Source: Fibrobacter succinogenes
GTDB lineage: Bacteria > Fibrobacterota > Fibrobacteria > Fibrobacterales > Fibrobacteraceae
Reading direction: 5' to 3'
Assembly (NCBI GenBank): GCA_902762305.1
Contig: CACWNW010000023.1
Location: 1 to 32,640, forward strand
DNA: 32,640 nucleotides
Under the pieces are notes generated by a model. The model saw nothing but the letters and a program-made list of their open reading frames with translations. It was not told the origin of the DNA and did no database searches. Position numbers and translations under genes: made by a program. Shown here one piece after another: positions 1,527-9,980 of this stretch. Each line of letters opens with the position of its first letter. Position 1 is the stretch's first letter.

Positions 1527-1949
1527 CTACGCCACAGTCTTCAGCAGTTCCCTGCCGATACGGCGCAATTCCTCGTCAATGAGTTTCTTTCTTGCCAAAG
1601 AGGGTTTCTTCGTTCCGTTTACGTATGCGGCGAACAGGGGCTGAGGGATTCCCAATCGGCGGGCAAACGCCGAGGCGTTAAGTTCGGGGAACAGCCAAAA
1701 TATACGACCAATGGGATTTGTCTTTTTCGGAGAAAAGAAGCCCGAAAGTTCCAGGCCCTCGTCCAAATCATCAAACCACACGCCATCGCAATCAACGCGG
1801 CAGTTCTCCAACTGCTTTCGCGTAGCCTTCCGCAGCGGTTCGTAATCGCGGATGAGTTCACGCCCGATTCGGCCGTCTTTCAGTTCAACACAAACAGCGT
1901 CTTTCTCGATCCAAAGCCTTTTTACATCTTTTTCCGAAATCTCGTTCAT
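1527..1949 (-). CDS. DUF2442-like protein with C-terminal helix-turn-helix, 140 aa
   Basis: The first half (about residues 1-75) looks like a DUF2442 domain: short beta-strands of the form 'VKRLWIEKDAVCVELKDGR' followed by a polar region. Residues about 88-130 (LNASAFARRLGIPQPLFAAY, then VNGTKKPS) form an Xre-like helix-turn-helix of the SQSxLAxRLGIxQxxxxxYxxGxKKPS type. The start codon overlaps the stop of the upstream RelB/DinJ-like gene in an ATGA, so the two are translationally coupled. DUF2442 genes are often paired with DUF4160 in toxin-antitoxin-like loci; here the partner is instead a RelB/DinJ-like protein. A DNA-binding autoregulator is the likely role. No catalytic residues are apparent. 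Confidence 0.75.
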   Translation of the reverse strand: MNEISEKDVKRLWIEKDAVCVELKDGRIGRELIRDYEPLRKATRKQLENCRVDCDGVWFDDLDEGLELSGFFSPKKTNPIGRIFWLFPELNASAFARRLGIPQPLFAAYVNGTKKPSLARKKLIDEELRRIGRELLKTVA

Positions 1950-2263
1950 CCGTTCGTTCCAAGCCGTTTCTTTCTCTCCGCACGGGCAGCCTTGATTTCG
2001 GCCTCGATTTCTTCTTCACTCAAGTTGTCAACGCCATGTTCACGGGCCTGTTTCTGCGCCTCATTAAGGTAGTAAAGCAAATCATGACCCTTATATGTCG
2101 GAGGAGTTCCCTTCACCTCAAACGGAATTCCATTTTCGACAAGAGCACGTTTGAAAAAGATGCGCACAGCCGTGGGTATATCCATCCCAAGGCTTTCAAA
2201 CAGGTCGGAAACCTGCTTTTTCAAATCTTCTTCAATCCTTATTTGCAAAACCGACATCGGCAT
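1946..2263 (-). CDS. RelB/DinJ-family antitoxin-like protein, 105 aa
   Basis: The N-terminal half (MPMSVLQIRIEEDLKKQVSD, then LFESLGMDIPTAVRIFFKRA) is a typical ribbon-helix-helix domain of the RelB/DinJ family: a beta-strand 'VLQIRIEEDLKKQ' and a helix ending in 'DIPTAVRIFFKRAL'. The C-terminal half is acidic and helical (NLSEEEIEAEIKAARAERKK), as in antitoxin toxin-binding arms. The start at 2263 is preferred over 2278 because AGGGGG lies 5 bases upstream of it. The next gene begins within its stop codon. No YafQ/RelE-type toxin follows, so it is either an orphan antitoxin, or its true partner is the DUF2442-HTH protein. A palindrome about 110 bases upstream may be its operator. Confidence 0.8.
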   Translation of the reverse strand: MPMSVLQIRIEEDLKKQVSDLFESLGMDIPTAVRIFFKRALVENGIPFEVKGTPPTYKGHDLLYYLNEAQKQAREHGVDNLSEEEIEAEIKAARAERKKRLGTNG

Positions 2264-2368
2264 ACAGACCCCCTGCATTATTACATCAAAATATAGTCAA
2301 AATAACTGCAAAAAGCAATACTTTTGCATAGAATCACTATTTTTCGTTCTTTTTTCTCCCCCCTCACC

Positions 2369-3047: not shown

Positions 3048-4553
3048 CTAGTCCTTTACGCAACGAACTGAAAATGCATAGATCTTTGGGTAGAAGTACA
3101 GGTTCGCATTGTCGCCATAGTAGTACACGTACACATTATTCGCGTTTGTTTCACGATCCCTCTCATACTCTACAGAACTCCAGAAGTACGTATATTTGCC
3201 CTCTTCGAGGAAATCTCCTCCATCGCAGAACCTGAAACCAGCAGGCAACGCGGTGAAACCGAATGCATCCGTGCCATTTCCGCTTGTTCCTTTATAATCA
3301 TTCCAGCCCGTCTGCGATTTGAGAACCTTGCCCGCAGTGGATCTTCCGCCCACAGCCATGAGAAAGGCTTGCCATTCGGTATTATTCGGCAAATGCCAAC
3401 CCGGCGGGCAAATGCCCTGCACCGTGCCGGTCAGATTGCAAAATTTATCGTAACCGCATTCAAGCGGATTATCGGCATCATTCGCAAGCTTCACCGAATC
3501 GATTGCCGCGGCCCATGTATAAAAACGGCCAGCCACATCGCAGGTAGAGCTATCCCCGTTGTCCTTCTTTCCAAAGCACCAACTCTTTTCCTTCACATTT
3601 AAATCCGAGGCATCATAGTAATTCAGGTTTTCGGCCATCCAAGTTTGGTCACCAATCTTCACCGTCTTGTATGTTTTGCCATCACGTTCATCGGTCATGG
3701 AGCCGTAGTCAATATCAGGATTAAAGCGACATTCCTTCGGCACATTCCAACTCCAACCCGTTTCGCCTTCCAGAAGCGCCGAACAATTCACCTTGTCCTC
3801 GCTACTACTGGAACTTGATTCAGGTTCGCTAGAGCTAGACTGCACATCAGCAGAGCTGCTACTAGACTGCGGCGTCACTTCAGAAGAAGACGACTCCGCG
3901 ACGCTAGACGAGGACTCCACAACACTGCTACTGGATTCTTCGCTTGCGCTCAGAATGACGGATGAAGAACTACTAGACTTCACCGAACTCGACGACTCTT
4001 CATTTTTCGAAGACGAAGACTTCGACTTTTCACTGCTGCTGGACGAACTTTCCGGTTCGCATAAAACCCAGTCACCTTGCTCACACCGTGCATAATAAGT
4101 AGGCGTGTACCCCATTGGTGAATGGGGAACCGCAAACACCATAAACCTCCACGATTGCACCTGACCTTCGTTTTCCGCATCGCATTCCCAATCGTCAGGA
4201 GCAGCACGAATCACATCACCTTCCGTTAGATTTTCCAGAGAAGTTGCAGAAGGTCCAGACCACTTACCATTTTTACATTTGTAAAAAACGGTATTGACTC
4301 TATACGTTCCATACCAAGCATCTAACGTTTCCCGGTACTGATACAATAAAAATTTGCCCTCGTACTTTTTATCACAGGTACGATACTCATCCGGATTAAA
4401 AGAAGAACTTGTCTCTGCAATTTCAGAAGACGAAGACACCGCCTTTTCACTGCTGGACGAGTCGTCATCCGGTCCAGAGGAATATGACGAATCATCTACG
4501 CACCCGACAAACGCGAATGCAGCCACCCCCATCGCAACGAGAAACTTTTTCAT
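3048..4553 (-). CDS. FISUMP-domain lipoprotein with YRTCD module and Ser-rich linker, 501 aa
   Basis: The N-terminus MKKFLVAMGVAAFAFVGC is a lipoprotein signal (lipobox FVGC, Cys18); the start at 4553 has GGAGGT 3 bases upstream, better than the longer in-frame option. Residues about 57-165 form a cysteine-containing module (EYRTCDKKYEGKFLLYQY ... ARCEQGDWVLC) that occurs twice in the FISUMP protein at 5739-7334. A linker of about 95 residues, mostly serine, follows. Residues about 283-501 are the FISUMP domain, from YGSMTDERDGKTYKTVKIGD through WMAENLNY, the GWHLPNNTEW motif, and FSVRCVKD at the end. FISUMP domains are found in exported Fibrobacter proteins of unknown function. Residues 199-207 (VILSASEES) are translated from an interspersed DNA repeat. 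The hydrolase gene follows immediately. Confidence 0.9.
   Translation of the reverse strand: MKKFLVAMGVAAFAFVGCVDDSSYSSGPDDDSSSSEKAVSSSSEIAETSSSFNPDEYRTCDKKYEGKFLLYQYRETLDAWYGTYRVNTVFYKCKNGKWSGPSATSLENLTEGDVIRAAPDDWECDAENEGQVQSWRFMVFAVPHSPMGYTPTYYARCEQGDWVLCEPESSSSSSEKSKSSSSKNEESSSSVKSSSSSSVILSASEESSSSVVESSSSVAESSSSEVTPQSSSSSADVQSSSSEPESSSSSSEDKVNCSALLEGETGWSWNVPKECRFNPDIDYGSMTDERDGKTYKTVKIGDQTWMAENLNYYDASDLNVKEKSWCFGKKDNGDSSTCDVAGRFYTWAAAIDSVKLANDADNPLECGYDKFCNLTGTVQGICPPGWHLPNNTEWQAFLMAVGGRSTAGKVLKSQTGWNDYKGTSGNGTDAFGFTALPAGFRFCDGGDFLEEGKYTYFWSSVEYERDRETNANNVYVYYYGDNANLYFYPKIYAFSVRCVKD
3933..3959 (-). repeat. Interspersed repeat captured in the Ser-rich linker
   Basis: On the minus strand this reads GTCATTCTGAGCGCAAGCGA followed by AGAATCC, a copy of the intergenic GTCATCCTGAGCG family seen at 204-244. 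It is in frame and gives VILSASEES inside an otherwise almost pure serine linker, so the host protein tolerates it. Confidence 0.75.
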
Positions 4554-4752
4554 ATGACCTCCGGTTACCAGATAAAATAAATCCAACACAAATGTAATCT
4601 TTTTCGGCGAGAACCATGTCAAAAGTCAATATAAAAAAACGGACGTAAGTAGGTCGGTTACCATAAAAAGTTATATTGAATAAAAACAAGCAACCAAGAA
4701 CTAGTTCAGTATTCTATATTTAAATTGCAGCAAATTCATCGGGACTTTCAAC

Positions 4753-5481
4753 ATGCCCATCACAAACAAAGCAACCATAACTCAATGGAATGAAGAAAAG
4801 GGATTCGGGTTTGCAACCGCAAACGGAACAAAATACTTCGTCCATGTTTCTGCTCTAGGGCATACCGTCCGACCGCCTAAAATTGGCGACACCATTACTA
4901 TTTGCAGCTTCGGGAAAACAGAAAAAGGCGTTCGAATCGAAAAAGGGATTCTTGAAGGAGTCGCCCTACGCCAAGAGCAGCGCACCTACCGTCCAACAAG
5001 TTCTGGATACCACAAAGCCAACAAATCCCTGCGTAGCTTTATTTTCGGCCTATGCATCATTTTGGTCGCAGTCTCCGGCATCTACACGTTTATTTCAAAA
5101 ACGTCACCGACAGTTTTTACGACACTGTCTGCTACGCAATACACTTCAAAAGATGAAGTTGCAAAATTTATTTGCAATAACGGTCACCTGCCATCGAATT
5201 ACGTGAGCAAAAGTGAAGGCAAAAGGCTATACGAACAAAAAACAGGCAAAACTTTCAGCAAATGGAATTTTAATCCCTTATCGACCCTCGGCGTAATGAT
5301 TGGTGGCGACAATTTCGACAATCGAGAAGGGCTGCTACCTCCAGGAACCTGGTACGAAGCCGATGTTGACTATTTCGCAAACAACCGAGGAACAAAGCGA
5401 CTTGTTTATGGCAGCGGTTGCAACATCTATTACACCGGCGACCACTACAGATCCTTCAGCAAGATTAGATTCGGAAATTAA
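4753..5481 (+). CDS. Cold-shock domain - membrane helix - barnase-type ribonuclease fusion, 242 aa
   Basis: Residues 5-70 are a cold-shock OB fold: KGFGFA (RNP1, 16-21) and YFVHVS (RNP2, 28-33), of the kind found at the N-terminus of DUF1294 and excalibur proteins. Residues about 95-115 (SFIFGLCIILVAVSGIYTFI) are one membrane helix with basic residues before it, which predicts an inside N-terminus and an outside C-terminus. Residues about 134-242 match barnase along its whole length: LPSNYVSKSEG, IGGDNFDNREGLLP, TWYEADVDY, GTKRLVYG and TGDHYRSFSKIR. The barnase catalytic and binding residues K27, R59, E73, R83, R87 and H102 correspond to K153, R191, E202, R212, R216 and H231. So the enzyme looks active, cutting RNA after guanine, with the domain placed in the periplasm. 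Cys141 and Cys223 could form a disulfide. No barstar gene is nearby. Confidence 0.9.
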   Translation: MPITNKATITQWNEEKGFGFATANGTKYFVHVSALGHTVRPPKIGDTITICSFGKTEKGVRIEKGILEGVALRQEQRTYRPTSSGYHKANKSLRSFIFGLCIILVAVSGIYTFISKTSPTVFTTLSATQYTSKDEVAKFICNNGHLPSNYVSKSEGKRLYEQKTGKTFSKWNFNPLSTLGVMIGGDNFDNREGLLPPGTWYEADVDYFANNRGTKRLVYGSGCNIYYTGDHYRSFSKIRFGN

Positions 5482-5503
5482 CCATCTTTAAGGGAAAACA
5501 AAC

Positions 5504-5641
5504 ATGGATTTTTTATCTGATTTAATAGCCGAATTTTTGGCAATGTTGCTCAATTGGCGACATATTCTGATTATATTATCGCTTCTATTTATAGGTTTCG
5601 TCGTTTATAAATTTGTATTGCCGATGTTTGGCACTTCGTAG
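5504..5641 (+). CDS. Small single-pass membrane protein, 45 aa
   Basis: A short open frame beginning MDFLSDLIAEFLAMLLNWRH, then a hydrophobic segment (ILIILSLLFIGFVVYKFVL) and ending in MFGTS. One membrane helix is predicted, with a short amphipathic N-terminal stretch. AGGG lies about 9 bases before the ATG. It begins 22 bases after the cold-shock/barnase gene on the same strand, so the two are probably one transcript. It has no similarity to barstar. It could be an immunity or regulatory partner of the ribonuclease, or an unrelated small protein; its reality as a gene rests on the hydrophobic pattern, spacing and ribosome binding site. Confidence 0.6.
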   Translation: MDFLSDLIAEFLAMLLNWRHILIILSLLFIGFVVYKFVLPMFGTS

Positions 5642-5738: not shown

Positions 5739-7334
5739 CTAGTCCATCACGCAGCGGACGGAGAACGCATAGTTCTTGTCATAATTAAGCAAGCCCGCAT
5801 ACTCGTAGTCGTAGCTCAAGTAAAAGGCCACGACGCCTCCAAGGCTTTCTTCGGTACTCCAGAAATCGGTACCATCGCCAAGGCCGTTAAAAGTTCCGTT
5901 GCCGAACATGATGCCGGCAGGCAGCGCATTAAAGCCAAAGGCGTCCGTTCCGCTCACGCTGTTCTCGCCACTGGACCAGCCGCTCTGCGATTTGAGGACA
6001 ACGCCCGCCGTAGTGTAGCCGCCCACCGCCAGAAGCAGGCCGTACCATTCATCGTGATCTGGCAGGTGCCACTTGTCGGGGCAAGCCGCCGTTGCCGCCG
6101 ACCAGATGTACAGGCGACCGTACTTCGCACAGTTTTCGGGGTCATCAGCGTAACACCAGGATTTACCCTCTAGGCTCGGGGTCTTCGCGCTGTCCGCATA
6201 ATCCAGGTTTTCGGCCATCCACCACTTGTTGTGAATCTTCACGGTCTTGTAAGTCTTTCCATCACGTTCATCGGTCAGGGTTCCGTACTCGCAGTTATCC
6301 TCCGTTTCTGTTTTGCAGGGGCCAACCAAAATTTCATGGCTTGAGGAACTTGCGGCAACCGAAGAAGAAGACTCCGTCGCATCACCGCTGCTTGAACTGA
6401 ACAAGCTTGAAGACGAACTGGGAGCGCATAAGACCCAATCACCTTGTTTACACCTAGCTACGCTAACTACGCTAACTTCGGTACCTACGGAAATTTGTTG
6501 TTCCAACATTGTACTTTGATATGAATACTCCGTCAAACCATAAGAGTATTGCAGAAGGCCTTCATTTTCAGCATTACATTCCAAGACGGATCGAGTAATG
6601 TTTTCCTCGTCACTTGTAACAACAAGAACCACGTCACCGCCAGTTTTATTTTCCGGACCGACATAAGAAAACTCAGACCATTTACCATTTTCACATTTGT
6701 AATAAGCACCTAGGATAGTTTTTACTTCAGCCGGATGCGGAGAATGCATCCAATAATTTGCTGAATACTGGTACAGTAAATATCTGCCTTCGTACTTTTG
6801 ATCGCAGGTACGATATTCATCTGGATTAAATACTGGCGATGGCCGAATGTCCGGTATACCACGTACAACCCAATCACCTTGTTCACACCTAGCGAAACGA
6901 TCAGCCCAGCTTTTACCATATTTAGACGAATACAAAACATACGACCACCGTTGCACTTTGCCTTCCTTTTCAGCATTACATTTCCAGGATTCGCCCTCGC
7001 TATCTAAAACAGCAAGAATCACGTCACCGCCAGTTTCATTTTCCGGACCGGTTTCCAAAATCCTAGACCATTCACCATTTTCACATTTAACAAAAACATC
7101 TCTGTTTGCAATGCCACTACCATCCCATTCCTCATACTGGTACAATAAATATTTACCTTCGTACTTTTGATCACAGGTACGATATTCATACAGATTAAAA
7201 GACGAACTTGAGATTTCAGAAGGCAAATTAGCGGAAGCCGATGGATCTGCTATAGTAGAATCAGTGTTGCATGCGCACAATAAAAAGGCAAAACATGCTA
7301 CAACGCCACACAGCACAGCAGAAAACTTTTTCAT
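5739..7334 (-). CDS. FISUMP-domain lipoprotein with two YRTCD modules, 531 aa
   Basis: The signal peptide ends in LLCAC (lipobox), so it is lipid-anchored in the envelope. Two copies of the cysteine module follow: about residues 50-160 (EYRTCDQKYEGKYLLYQYEE ... RCEQGDWVVRG) and about 170-310 (EYRTCDQKYEGRYLLYQY ... RCKQGDWVLC). A short serine linker (SSSSSLFSSSSGD) leads to the FISUMP domain, about residues 345-531 (YGTLTDERDGKTYKTVKIHN, WWMAENLDY, WHLPDHDEWY, FSVRCVMD). AGGGGG lies 5 bases before the ATG. The modules are those of the 3048-4553 protein, so the two genes are paralogues that differ in module number. An SDR gene remnant lies immediately upstream of this gene. Confidence 0.9.
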   Translation of the reverse strand: MKKFSAVLCGVVACFAFLLCACNTDSTIADPSASANLPSEISSSSFNLYEYRTCDQKYEGKYLLYQYEEWDGSGIANRDVFVKCENGEWSRILETGPENETGGDVILAVLDSEGESWKCNAEKEGKVQRWSYVLYSSKYGKSWADRFARCEQGDWVVRGIPDIRPSPVFNPDEYRTCDQKYEGRYLLYQYSANYWMHSPHPAEVKTILGAYYKCENGKWSEFSYVGPENKTGGDVVLVVTSDEENITRSVLECNAENEGLLQYSYGLTEYSYQSTMLEQQISVGTEVSVVSVARCKQGDWVLCAPSSSSSLFSSSSGDATESSSSVAASSSSHEILVGPCKTETEDNCEYGTLTDERDGKTYKTVKIHNKWWMAENLDYADSAKTPSLEGKSWCYADDPENCAKYGRLYIWSAATAACPDKWHLPDHDEWYGLLLAVGGYTTAGVVLKSQSGWSSGENSVSGTDAFGFNALPAGIMFGNGTFNGLGDGTDFWSTEESLGGVVAFYLSYDYEYAGLLNYDKNYAFSVRCVMD

Positions 7335-8003: not shown

Positions 8004-9980
8004 TCAGTCCTTTACGCAGCGGACCGAATAAGCGTTTTCCTTGTCGCTTGAAATGTCCGCACTTTCGCGATACCAGTTCATGTACACACGGAAAGCATCG
8101 TTATTTTCCGCAGTGCCCCAGAAAAAGGTTACGCCATCACCGGAATATTTAGGCGTACAACCAATTATTTCAAAACGCCCGCCACCTACATGGCGTTCAT
8201 CGTGGGAAATGTACCTGTAACCAGCCGGCAACACAGAAAATCCAAAAGCATCCAAGCTTTTAGTATTTTCTCCCCAGCCACTTGTCGACCTGAGAGCAGC
8301 ACCAATAGACAATCTTTTTCCGACCACGCTACGCAAGGTATTCCATTCGTCGTCACTCGGAAGATGCCAGCCTTCAGGGCATGCGGTGGTCGCTGCCGCC
8401 CACGTATAAAGGCGACCGTACATGGTGCAATAGTTTACACTGTCTTTATAACAATAACTATCTGCCGTTTCAAAGTTGAGATTCTCGGCCATCCAGGTTT
8501 GTTCGCCAATTTTCACCGTCTTGTAGGTCTGGCCATCACGGGCATCCGTCATAAAGCCCTTCTCCCCTTTCACCCCGGAATTATCAGATGGAAGATCAGA
8601 AGATGCAGCATCGATGCTTTTACTCGACTGGGCTATTGAATTGCCCTTTAGGCAACGAACAGAAAAATTTTGATATTTGAATCCATCGCCCTTCATAACA
8701 TACTCAAAACGATTATTCAACTGAACATTGTACGCATGCTTGCTATCGGACTCAGTTGAACTCCAGAAGTATGCGTCACGGCCTTTAGAGCCCCAATCAC
8801 GAGCTACACTCGATTCACCAGCCGGCAAAGCGGAGAATGAAACCACATCCGTGCCGTCGCCATAGGTTTCCCAACCAGATGTGGACTTGAGAACCTCGCC
8901 GGCAGTGGAATCTCCTCCGACAGCCGCGAATAAAGTGTCCCATTCGGCCTTGCTAGGCAAATACCAGCCTTCGGGGCATGCGGAATTAGCAGCCTCCCAC
9001 CCATAAAGCCTCCCGAACTTGGCGCAGTTGCTTGAATCATCACCATAGCAATAGCTATAGTCCATCTCGTAGTTCAGGTTTTCCGCCATCCACGTCTGCG
9101 AGCTAATTTTCACCGTCCTGTACATTTGACCATCGCGAAAATCGGTCATAGAATCTATGCTCCCTTCGATGCGTTTGACCGTTTTTTCGACCTTACGAAC
9201 ATCATCCTTTACACAACGGACGGGATTTGCAGTACAACCATAGTATAAAAAATCGCCACCACCACCAACTTCGGAGCCTTCATTATAAAAGAAAACAGGA
9301 GCCTCGGGGCCGCCCCCACTTAACGAAGAAGTCCAAAAACGCGTTTCTTTGCCTTCATCGATATAATCAACGCCCATGCTCCATGCGTGCCTACAGCCAG
9401 AAGGCAACACAGAAAACGAGTATGCATCCGAACCATCACCAGAACTAAGCCATCCACCCAAGGATCTGATAGGTCTAACAAATATTATAGCATCCAAAAT
9501 CTTTGCAAGAACACTATATCGCTCTTGAAAAACAGGCTCCCAGTGTTTCTTCCACCCCCACGTGGACTTGAGCACCCTGCCAGCATCAGACCTTCCTCCA
9601 ACAACAGCAAACAACGAATCCCATTCAGCCATGCTAGGCAGATGCCAACCGCTAGGGCAAACACCCTGAATATCTCCCTGCGGCAAACGACACTTCTTGT
9701 CCTTACCACATTCACTTTCCGGCTTGCCAACCGCAACCGCAAAATTATAGAGTCTTCCATACTTGGTGCAGTTGCTTGTATCGTCTTTATAGCAGTAACT
9801 CGAGTCCGTTTTGTAGTTCAGGTTCTGGGCCATCCATGTCTGCGATCCGATTTTCACAGTCCTATAAGTCTGCCCATCGCGAGGATCCGTCATGGAATCT
9901 AAAACAACTCTTGAGAAGGATGCCGCAGCACACGCAAGCAAAAACAGGCCGAGCAATAAAGGAAGGATGGCTTTTTTCAT
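8004..9980 (-). CDS. Lipoprotein with three tandem FISUMP domains, 658 aa
   Basis: The signal peptide MKKAILPLLLGLFLLAC ends at a lipobox (LLAC, Cys17). Three FISUMP domains follow with almost no linker: about 29-258 (SMTDPRDGQTYRTVKIGSQT), about 277-450 (SMTDFRDGQMYRTVKISSQT) and about 482-658 (FMTDARDGQTYKTVKIGEQT). Each has WMAENLN or WMAQNLN, a CxxYGRLY/CxxFGRLY stretch, the GWHLPS or GWYLPS motif and a closing SVRCxKD or PVRCVKD. Unlike the other FISUMP lipoproteins here it lacks the YRTCD module and the serine linker. AGGGTG lies about 8 bases before the ATG. The domain copies differ clearly, so the duplication is old. Function unknown; exported and probably surface-exposed. Confidence 0.9.
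   Translation of the reverse strand: MKKAILPLLLGLFLLACAAASFSRVVLDSMTDPRDGQTYRTVKIGSQTWMAQNLNYKTDSSYCYKDDTSNCTKYGRLYNFAVAVGKPESECGKDKKCRLPQGDIQGVCPSGWHLPSMAEWDSLFAVVGGRSDAGRVLKSTWGWKKHWEPVFQERYSVLAKILDAIIFVRPIRSLGGWLSSGDGSDAYSFSVLPSGCRHAWSMGVDYIDEGKETRFWTSSLSGGGPEAPVFFYNEGSEVGGGGDFLYYGCTANPVRCVKDDVRKVEKTVKRIEGSIDSMTDFRDGQMYRTVKISSQTWMAENLNYEMDYSYCYGDDSSNCAKFGRLYGWEAANSACPEGWYLPSKAEWDTLFAAVGGDSTAGEVLKSTSGWETYGDGTDVVSFSALPAGESSVARDWGSKGRDAYFWSSTESDSKHAYNVQLNNRFEYVMKGDGFKYQNFSVRCLKGNSIAQSSKSIDAASSDLPSDNSGVKGEKGFMTDARDGQTYKTVKIGEQTWMAENLNFETADSYCYKDSVNYCTMYGRLYTWAAATTACPEGWHLPSDDEWNTLRSVVGKRLSIGAALRSTSGWGENTKSLDAFGFSVLPAGYRYISHDERHVGGGRFEIIGCTPKYSGDGVTFFWGTAENNDAFRVYMNWYRESADISSDKENAYSVRCVKD

Follow-up and report, generated by a model that had tools for sequence, protein, structure and literature searches.

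A cold-shock domain, a membrane helix, and a barnase domain in one gene

The window analyzed here, a stretch of 32,640 nucleotides, comes from a Fibrobacter genome of 3.6 Mb, in which it is contig C23. An open frame on its plus strand (4753-5481) begins with ATG and encodes 242 amino acids plus a stop, and profiles, hydropathy, and predicted structure show a product that begins with a divergent cold-shock domain (CSD), continues through a single transmembrane (TM) helix, and ends in a barnase domain, confirming the fusion described in a first-pass annotation of this DNA. The features of the gene are as follows:

4753..5481, plus strand: CSD-TM-barnase gene (open frame, Pfam, homologues, conservation)
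4762..4956, plus strand: cold-shock (OB-fold) domain, residues 4-68, predicted cytoplasmic (structure match Z 10; Pfam sub-threshold, 18.4 bits)
4798..4815, plus strand: RNP1-like motif KGFGFA, residues 16-21 (K16, G19, and F20 invariant and F18 = F/Y among 22 members)
4834..4845, plus strand: RNP2-like motif YFVH, residues 28-31 (H31 invariant among 22 members)
5032..5094, plus strand: single TM helix, residues 94-114, predicted N-in signal anchor (hydropathy 2.5, K/R-rich N-side; helix 94-111 in the model)
5137..5469, plus strand: barnase domain, residues 129-239, predicted periplasmic (Pfam, PDB matches, predicted structure)
5173..5175, plus strand: C141, half of a co-occurring cysteine pair, candidate disulfide (co-occurrence in 48 barnases)
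5209..5211, plus strand: K153, equivalent to barnase K27 (alignment)
5323..5325, plus strand: R191, equivalent to barnase R59 (alignment; kept in 20 of 22 members)
5356..5358, plus strand: E202, equivalent to barnase E73, general base (alignment)
5386..5388, plus strand: R212, equivalent to barnase R83 (alignment)
5398..5400, plus strand: R216, equivalent to barnase R87 (alignment)
5419..5421, plus strand: C223, second half of the cysteine pair (co-occurrence in 48 barnases)
5443..5445, plus strand: H231, equivalent to barnase H102, general acid (alignment)

The genes on either side lie on the minus strand. These neighbors, which we take to be FISUMP-type lipoprotein genes, occupy 3048-4622, 5739-7334, and 8004-9980 (all minus strand); two of them have Ser-rich linkers, and the DNA of the flanking genes of this type cross-matches between loci. 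Immediately 3′ of the CSD-TM-barnase gene is an open frame for a 45-aa membrane peptide (5504-5641, plus strand) whose family is represented in 10 of the 80 Fibrobacter genomes and which we rejected as a general partner because it adjoins a CSD-barnase gene in only four of these and lies elsewhere in six. Comparison with another genome (G072, L171) shows 88.6% identical DNA starting at window position 5489, right after the barnase stop, with other genes replacing the barnase, and this position is a breakpoint of gene gain or loss. A promoter and terminator scan of the gene performed no better than on shuffled sequence, no shared upstream motif was seen in an alignment, and neither an operon partner nor a phosphate-type regulatory context was found. 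At 1527-2278 (minus strand), two overlapping small genes possibly form a toxin-antitoxin relic; judged by eye only, the first resembles a RelB/DinJ-type antitoxin and the second a DUF2442-like regulator.

Two recognizable folds

Pfam Ribonuclease (PF00545) matches residues 141-238 with an E-value of 9.8e-14 and 52.1 bits against a cut-off of 24, and barnase and binase in the PDB match the window protein at E 1e-17 with about 41% identity. In an AlphaFold2 model built from 21 sequences, the pLDDT of the barnase half is mostly 85-96, Foldseek with this half gives E 3e-10, and the superposition on barnase that the first-pass annotation had proposed finds the fold present (residues 129-239, Z 15.1, rmsd 1.9 Å over 102-103 residues). 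The six residues named there as the active site (K153, R191, E202, R212, R216, and H231) align as claimed with barnase K27, R59, E73, R83, R87, and H102; across 22 family members five of them are invariant, and the counterpart of R59 is retained in all but two. This points to an apparently intact active site and a predicted RNase activity.

The barnase half also contains two cysteines, C141 and C223, that behave as a pair, with both present in 38 of 48 barnases, neither in 10, and one alone in none. They align with barnase Q15 and W94, positions expected to lie close together because W94 packs against H18, where the helix containing Q15 ends. We regard a C141-C223 disulfide as a probable candidate, yet because the pair perhaps changed in step only once on the tree, it is weak evidence. 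Pfam searches of the same genome detected a DsbA-like protein but, as a point against a disulfide, neither DsbB nor VKOR.

The N-terminal half is recognized less readily by profile. Pfam CSD (PF00313) scores 18.4 bits, below its cut-off of 27, and hmmsearch with the family profile matched cold-shock proteins weakly; we therefore call the domain a divergent CSD and assign it on fold and motifs. In the model this half forms a five-stranded barrel with pLDDT about 90, and residues 4-68 superpose on CspA-, CspB-, and CspE-type chains with Z 9.5-10.1 and rmsd 1.9 Å. The RNP1-like KGFGFA and the RNP2-like YFVH are kept across the 22 members, and this conservation together with the fold led us to reject a chance match despite the sub-threshold score. 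As modeled, the N-terminal domain is a divergent CSD, a domain of RNA-binding type that may itself bind nucleic acid.

Predicted topology

Residues 94-114 are the sole hydrophobic stretch of the protein, with a mean Kyte-Doolittle hydropathy of 2.5 against 0.56 for the next best window. Five K/R residues fall within the 20 positions before this helix and two within the 20 after it, and K/R residues are more numerous before than after the helix in all 20 members from the genus Fibrobacter, with the smallest margin in the L038 group. A cysteine at residue 101 (window 5053-5055), in the N-terminal third of the helix, is kept in 22 of 22 full-length members and is thus invariant within an otherwise variable helix; this is not a normal lipobox position.

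The charge bias predicts an N-in topology, with the CSD in the cytoplasm and the RNase outside the inner membrane, supporting the arrangement of RNA binder and ribonuclease put forward in the first-pass annotation. We place the RNase outside because of the positive charge before the helix together with the cysteine pair, the near-absence of barstar, and the existence of exported paralogues, and also because an Excalibur domain takes the same place on the scaffold, as described below. A barnase active in the cytosol should be lethal, and since no barstar scored over the cut-off in the same genome, a cytosolic location is unlikely; two weak barstar matches there lie, by reading, in PyrC-like and AroK/AroB-like frames and were rejected. 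Genus-wide, barstar was found in only one of 80 Fibrobacter genomes, G014, a MAG that is 8% contaminated, even though 63 of the 80 have matches to the window protein, nearly all of them in the barnase part. Among the exported kin, the same genome encodes a lipoprotein barnase with a lipobox (G000:C1:101978-102316), and there are further lipoproteins as well as L129, a TM-barnase that lacks the CSD and is K-rich on its N-side. Because Fibrobacter has an outer membrane, “periplasmic” is a more precise term than “surface” for the nuclease for foreign RNA suggested earlier, which is otherwise a possible reading.

Distribution, phylogeny, and selection

Full-length homologues occupy 20 loci in 19 of the 80 Fibrobacter genomes, the source genome included, and one further homologue occurs in each of two other Fibrobacteraceae genera, one of them also found by name in the isolate F. 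intestinalis ATCC 43854. The homologue searches thus recovered the same architecture at 22 loci in 21 Fibrobacteraceae genomes, and this recurrence, which includes an isolate, led us to reject an assembly chimera, the artifact against which the first-pass annotation had cautioned. Judged by sequence, this is a conserved CSD-TM-barnase protein of rumen and gut Fibrobacter bacteria. Outside Fibrobacterota the survey comprised one pattern scan of genome contigs with two peptide patterns from the barnase half, which can miss distant cases. Among plasmid matches, those of Aerococcus and Acetoanaerobium were rejected as examples of the same architecture, since they extend no further than the TM helix plus barnase or are limited to the barnase, and a Proteus barnase is the tip of an Rhs-like protein. 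In genome G024 (L053:4698-5045), a deletion inside the gene keeps the reading frame and fuses the CSD, up to residue 71, to barnase residues 205-240, so that the helix and some of the active site are gone.

In a tree of 48 barnase domains, the CSD-bearing barnases and the CSD-less L129 form one group (bootstrap/SH-aLRT 89/89) that stands apart from the Fibrobacter lipoprotein barnases. The CSD-bearing sequences alone are not a clade, with L129 nesting inside them (AU p 0.06), and the simplest reading of this moderately supported tree is probably a single fusion event, with the CSD lost once, in L129. The dN/dS ratio is 0.07 for the barnase, 0.09 for the CSD, 0.28 for the linker, and 0.50 for the TM helix; both the CSD and the barnase are under strong purifying selection, and the helix shows the weakest sequence constraint, as expected for a spacer and anchor.

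A scaffold shared with Excalibur proteins

The protein does not stand as alone as it first seemed. Three Fibrobacter genomes have an Excalibur domain, a type named for extracellular calcium-binding proteins, on the same CSD-TM part (Pfam confirmed on two, L055 and L056), and in four genomes (L057, L058, L059, and L060) CSD-TM proteins have nothing behind the helix and, by reading, degraded RNP motifs. These forms can occur together: G068 has the barnase and Excalibur forms, and G001 has the barnase and CSD-TM-alone forms. One family model retrieves both the barnase and the Excalibur kinds, and on the C-terminal part of the window protein Pfam reports Ribonuclease only, with no Excalibur. A tblastn search with the Fibrobacter Excalibur form recovered full-length relatives from Aeromonas, Aliivibrio, Vibrio, and Thiodictyon, whose records carry cold shock or excalibur annotations (for Aeromonas 32.7% over 94%, E 3e-19); the CSD-TM part alone matched Aeromonas weakly (E 1e-3, 27%).

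The CSD-TM-Excalibur proteins of Gammaproteobacteria (e.g. Aeromonas QSO25257.1), annotated as “cold shock domain-containing” or “excalibur calcium-binding domain-containing protein,” and those of Fibrobacter resemble the window protein in having an N-terminal CSD with RNP-like motifs, a basic linker, one TM helix, and a small C-terminal domain presumed to lie outside, which is Excalibur in theirs and barnase here. The Fibrobacter CSD-TM part is a distant relative of the gammaproteobacterial one, at 25-30% identity, and given these matches common descent of the scaffold between phyla is no more than likely. The presence of Excalibur on the CSD-TM part in Fibrobacter and in its gammaproteobacterial relatives points to a domain swap on a known scaffold, in which a CSD-TM scaffold like those that bear Excalibur in other proteins probably acquired a barnase a single time. 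This is the direction that we infer for the swap; the CSD tree is too short and long-branched to order the barnase and Excalibur forms.

What is new, then, is the outer domain, with barnase in place of Excalibur. Our literature search found no paper on a CSD linked to a ribonuclease in such an architecture, in agreement with the first-pass annotation, which knew of no described ribonuclease version, although the sequence is already public in F. intestinalis ATCC 43854. We likewise found no description in the literature of a function for CSD-TM-Excalibur proteins, though they are annotated in many bacteria. A natural replacement of Excalibur by an enzyme gives a handle on the whole CSD-TM group, as the RNase half has known chemistry and lends itself to direct assay; it suggests where, relative to the membrane, the outer domain works and that the scaffold may be concerned with RNA.

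Possible roles

On balance we favor, with moderate confidence, a periplasmic RNase anchored in the inner membrane that degrades RNA there, with its CSD on the cytoplasmic side. The CSD would be made first, fold, and stay in the cytoplasm, and the hydrophobic helix would act as an uncleaved, single-pass, N-in signal anchor. The C-terminal barnase would be threaded across the membrane and fold in the periplasm, probably with one disulfide, where it would cut single-stranded RNA by the barnase mechanism, with E202 and H231 carrying out the transphosphorylation. Most likely it would serve to degrade RNA that reaches the periplasm, either from lysed rumen or gut cells or as leaked RNA, for nucleotide scavenging or clearance, working beside the lipoprotein barnase present in most Fibrobacter genomes. 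Against this reading, the membrane-tethered CSD has no evident use in it, and the lipoprotein alone could supply the RNase. The search for an operon partner or a phosphate-type regulatory context, negative as noted above, likewise tells against scavenging.

Several known RNases bear comparison with such a protein. Barnase and binase, secreted guanyl-specific RNases of PF00545, have the same fold and six active-site residues; unlike them, the window protein is membrane-anchored behind a CSD, with an extra cysteine pair and no barstar partner. The Fibrobacter lipoprotein barnase belongs to the same barnase subfamily, has the cysteine pair, and is exported, but it has a lipobox signal and no CSD, sits on a separate branch of the tree, and in the copy of the same genome has N in place of R59. 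E. coli RNase I is a soluble periplasmic enzyme of the T2 family. It is alike in function only, as an agent of periplasmic RNA degradation in a Gram-negative bacterium, and has an unrelated T2 fold and no CSD. PMC8765455 gives 2′,3′-cNMPs as its products.

Of the alternatives, one that we consider unlikely makes the CSD the working half, holding mRNAs, such as those for membrane or secreted proteins, at the inner membrane from the inside, with the barnase a passenger or a cutter of RNA crossing there. There is precedent in E. coli CspE and CspC, which bind membrane-protein mRNAs (PMC4520561), the CSD matches the barnase in its low dN/dS, and by reading the nucleic-acid-binding motifs are conserved in the barnase and Excalibur fusions and degenerate where a C-terminal domain is missing. 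However, no RNA ligand is known to us for any CSD-TM protein, the Pfam score of the CSD lies below the family cut-off, L129 retains the barnase without the CSD, and an mRNA receptor has no reason to bear an RNase outside. It is improbable, too, that the two halves cooperate through the inner membrane, with a tethered RNA binder on the cytoplasmic face and an RNase in the periplasm that together, as one chain, handle RNA at or passing through the envelope in import, export, or localized decay; if true, CSD-TM with its exchangeable outer domains (barnase, Excalibur) would be a general scaffold for nucleic-acid handling in the envelope.

We give similarly little credence to a barrier or defense nuclease that destroys foreign RNA (RNA phage genomes, vesicle RNA, or conjugation intermediates) at the inner membrane while the CSD catches strands that get through. 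The membrane position, the two nucleic-acid-related domains, and the patchy presence in 19 of the 80 genus genomes would suit such a role, but the window protein matches none of the families in PADLOC-DB, no defense genes were noticed near the gene, no homologue was found in phage and viral-contig collections, and the pattern is that of a single origin within one bacterial family, all of which weigh against the phage defense considered in the first-pass annotation.

A toxin delivered to other cells, likewise raised there, or a part of a toxin-antitoxin system is very improbable. Barnase is known as the tip of polymorphic toxins (Tox-Barnase, in Rhs and other proteins), where it is accompanied by barstar (PMC3482391), and the homologous Proteus domain is such an Rhs-like tip. 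The 242-aa protein, by contrast, consists of CSD, TM, and barnase only, with no delivery, repeat, or processing domain, and its anchor retains it; no immunity gene adjoins it, its neighbors being on the minus strand, barstar is confined to the one genome noted above, and the barnase tip is fixed rather than polymorphic, not varying between close relatives. Fibrobacteres are listed among the phyla with Tox-Barnase (PMC3482391), so an earlier count may already include the barnase half. The opposite, C-in topology, in which the barnase would be a cytoplasmic membrane-bound enzyme of RNA turnover and the CSD would lie outside, would put the RNase beside cellular RNA, and a cytoplasmic CSD has no recognized use under N-in either, but it is hardly credible given the positive-inside bias in the members tested, the lack of barstar, and the fact that exported kin and Excalibur take the side of the barnase. 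As they stand, these genomes document barnases persisting across a genus practically without barstar.
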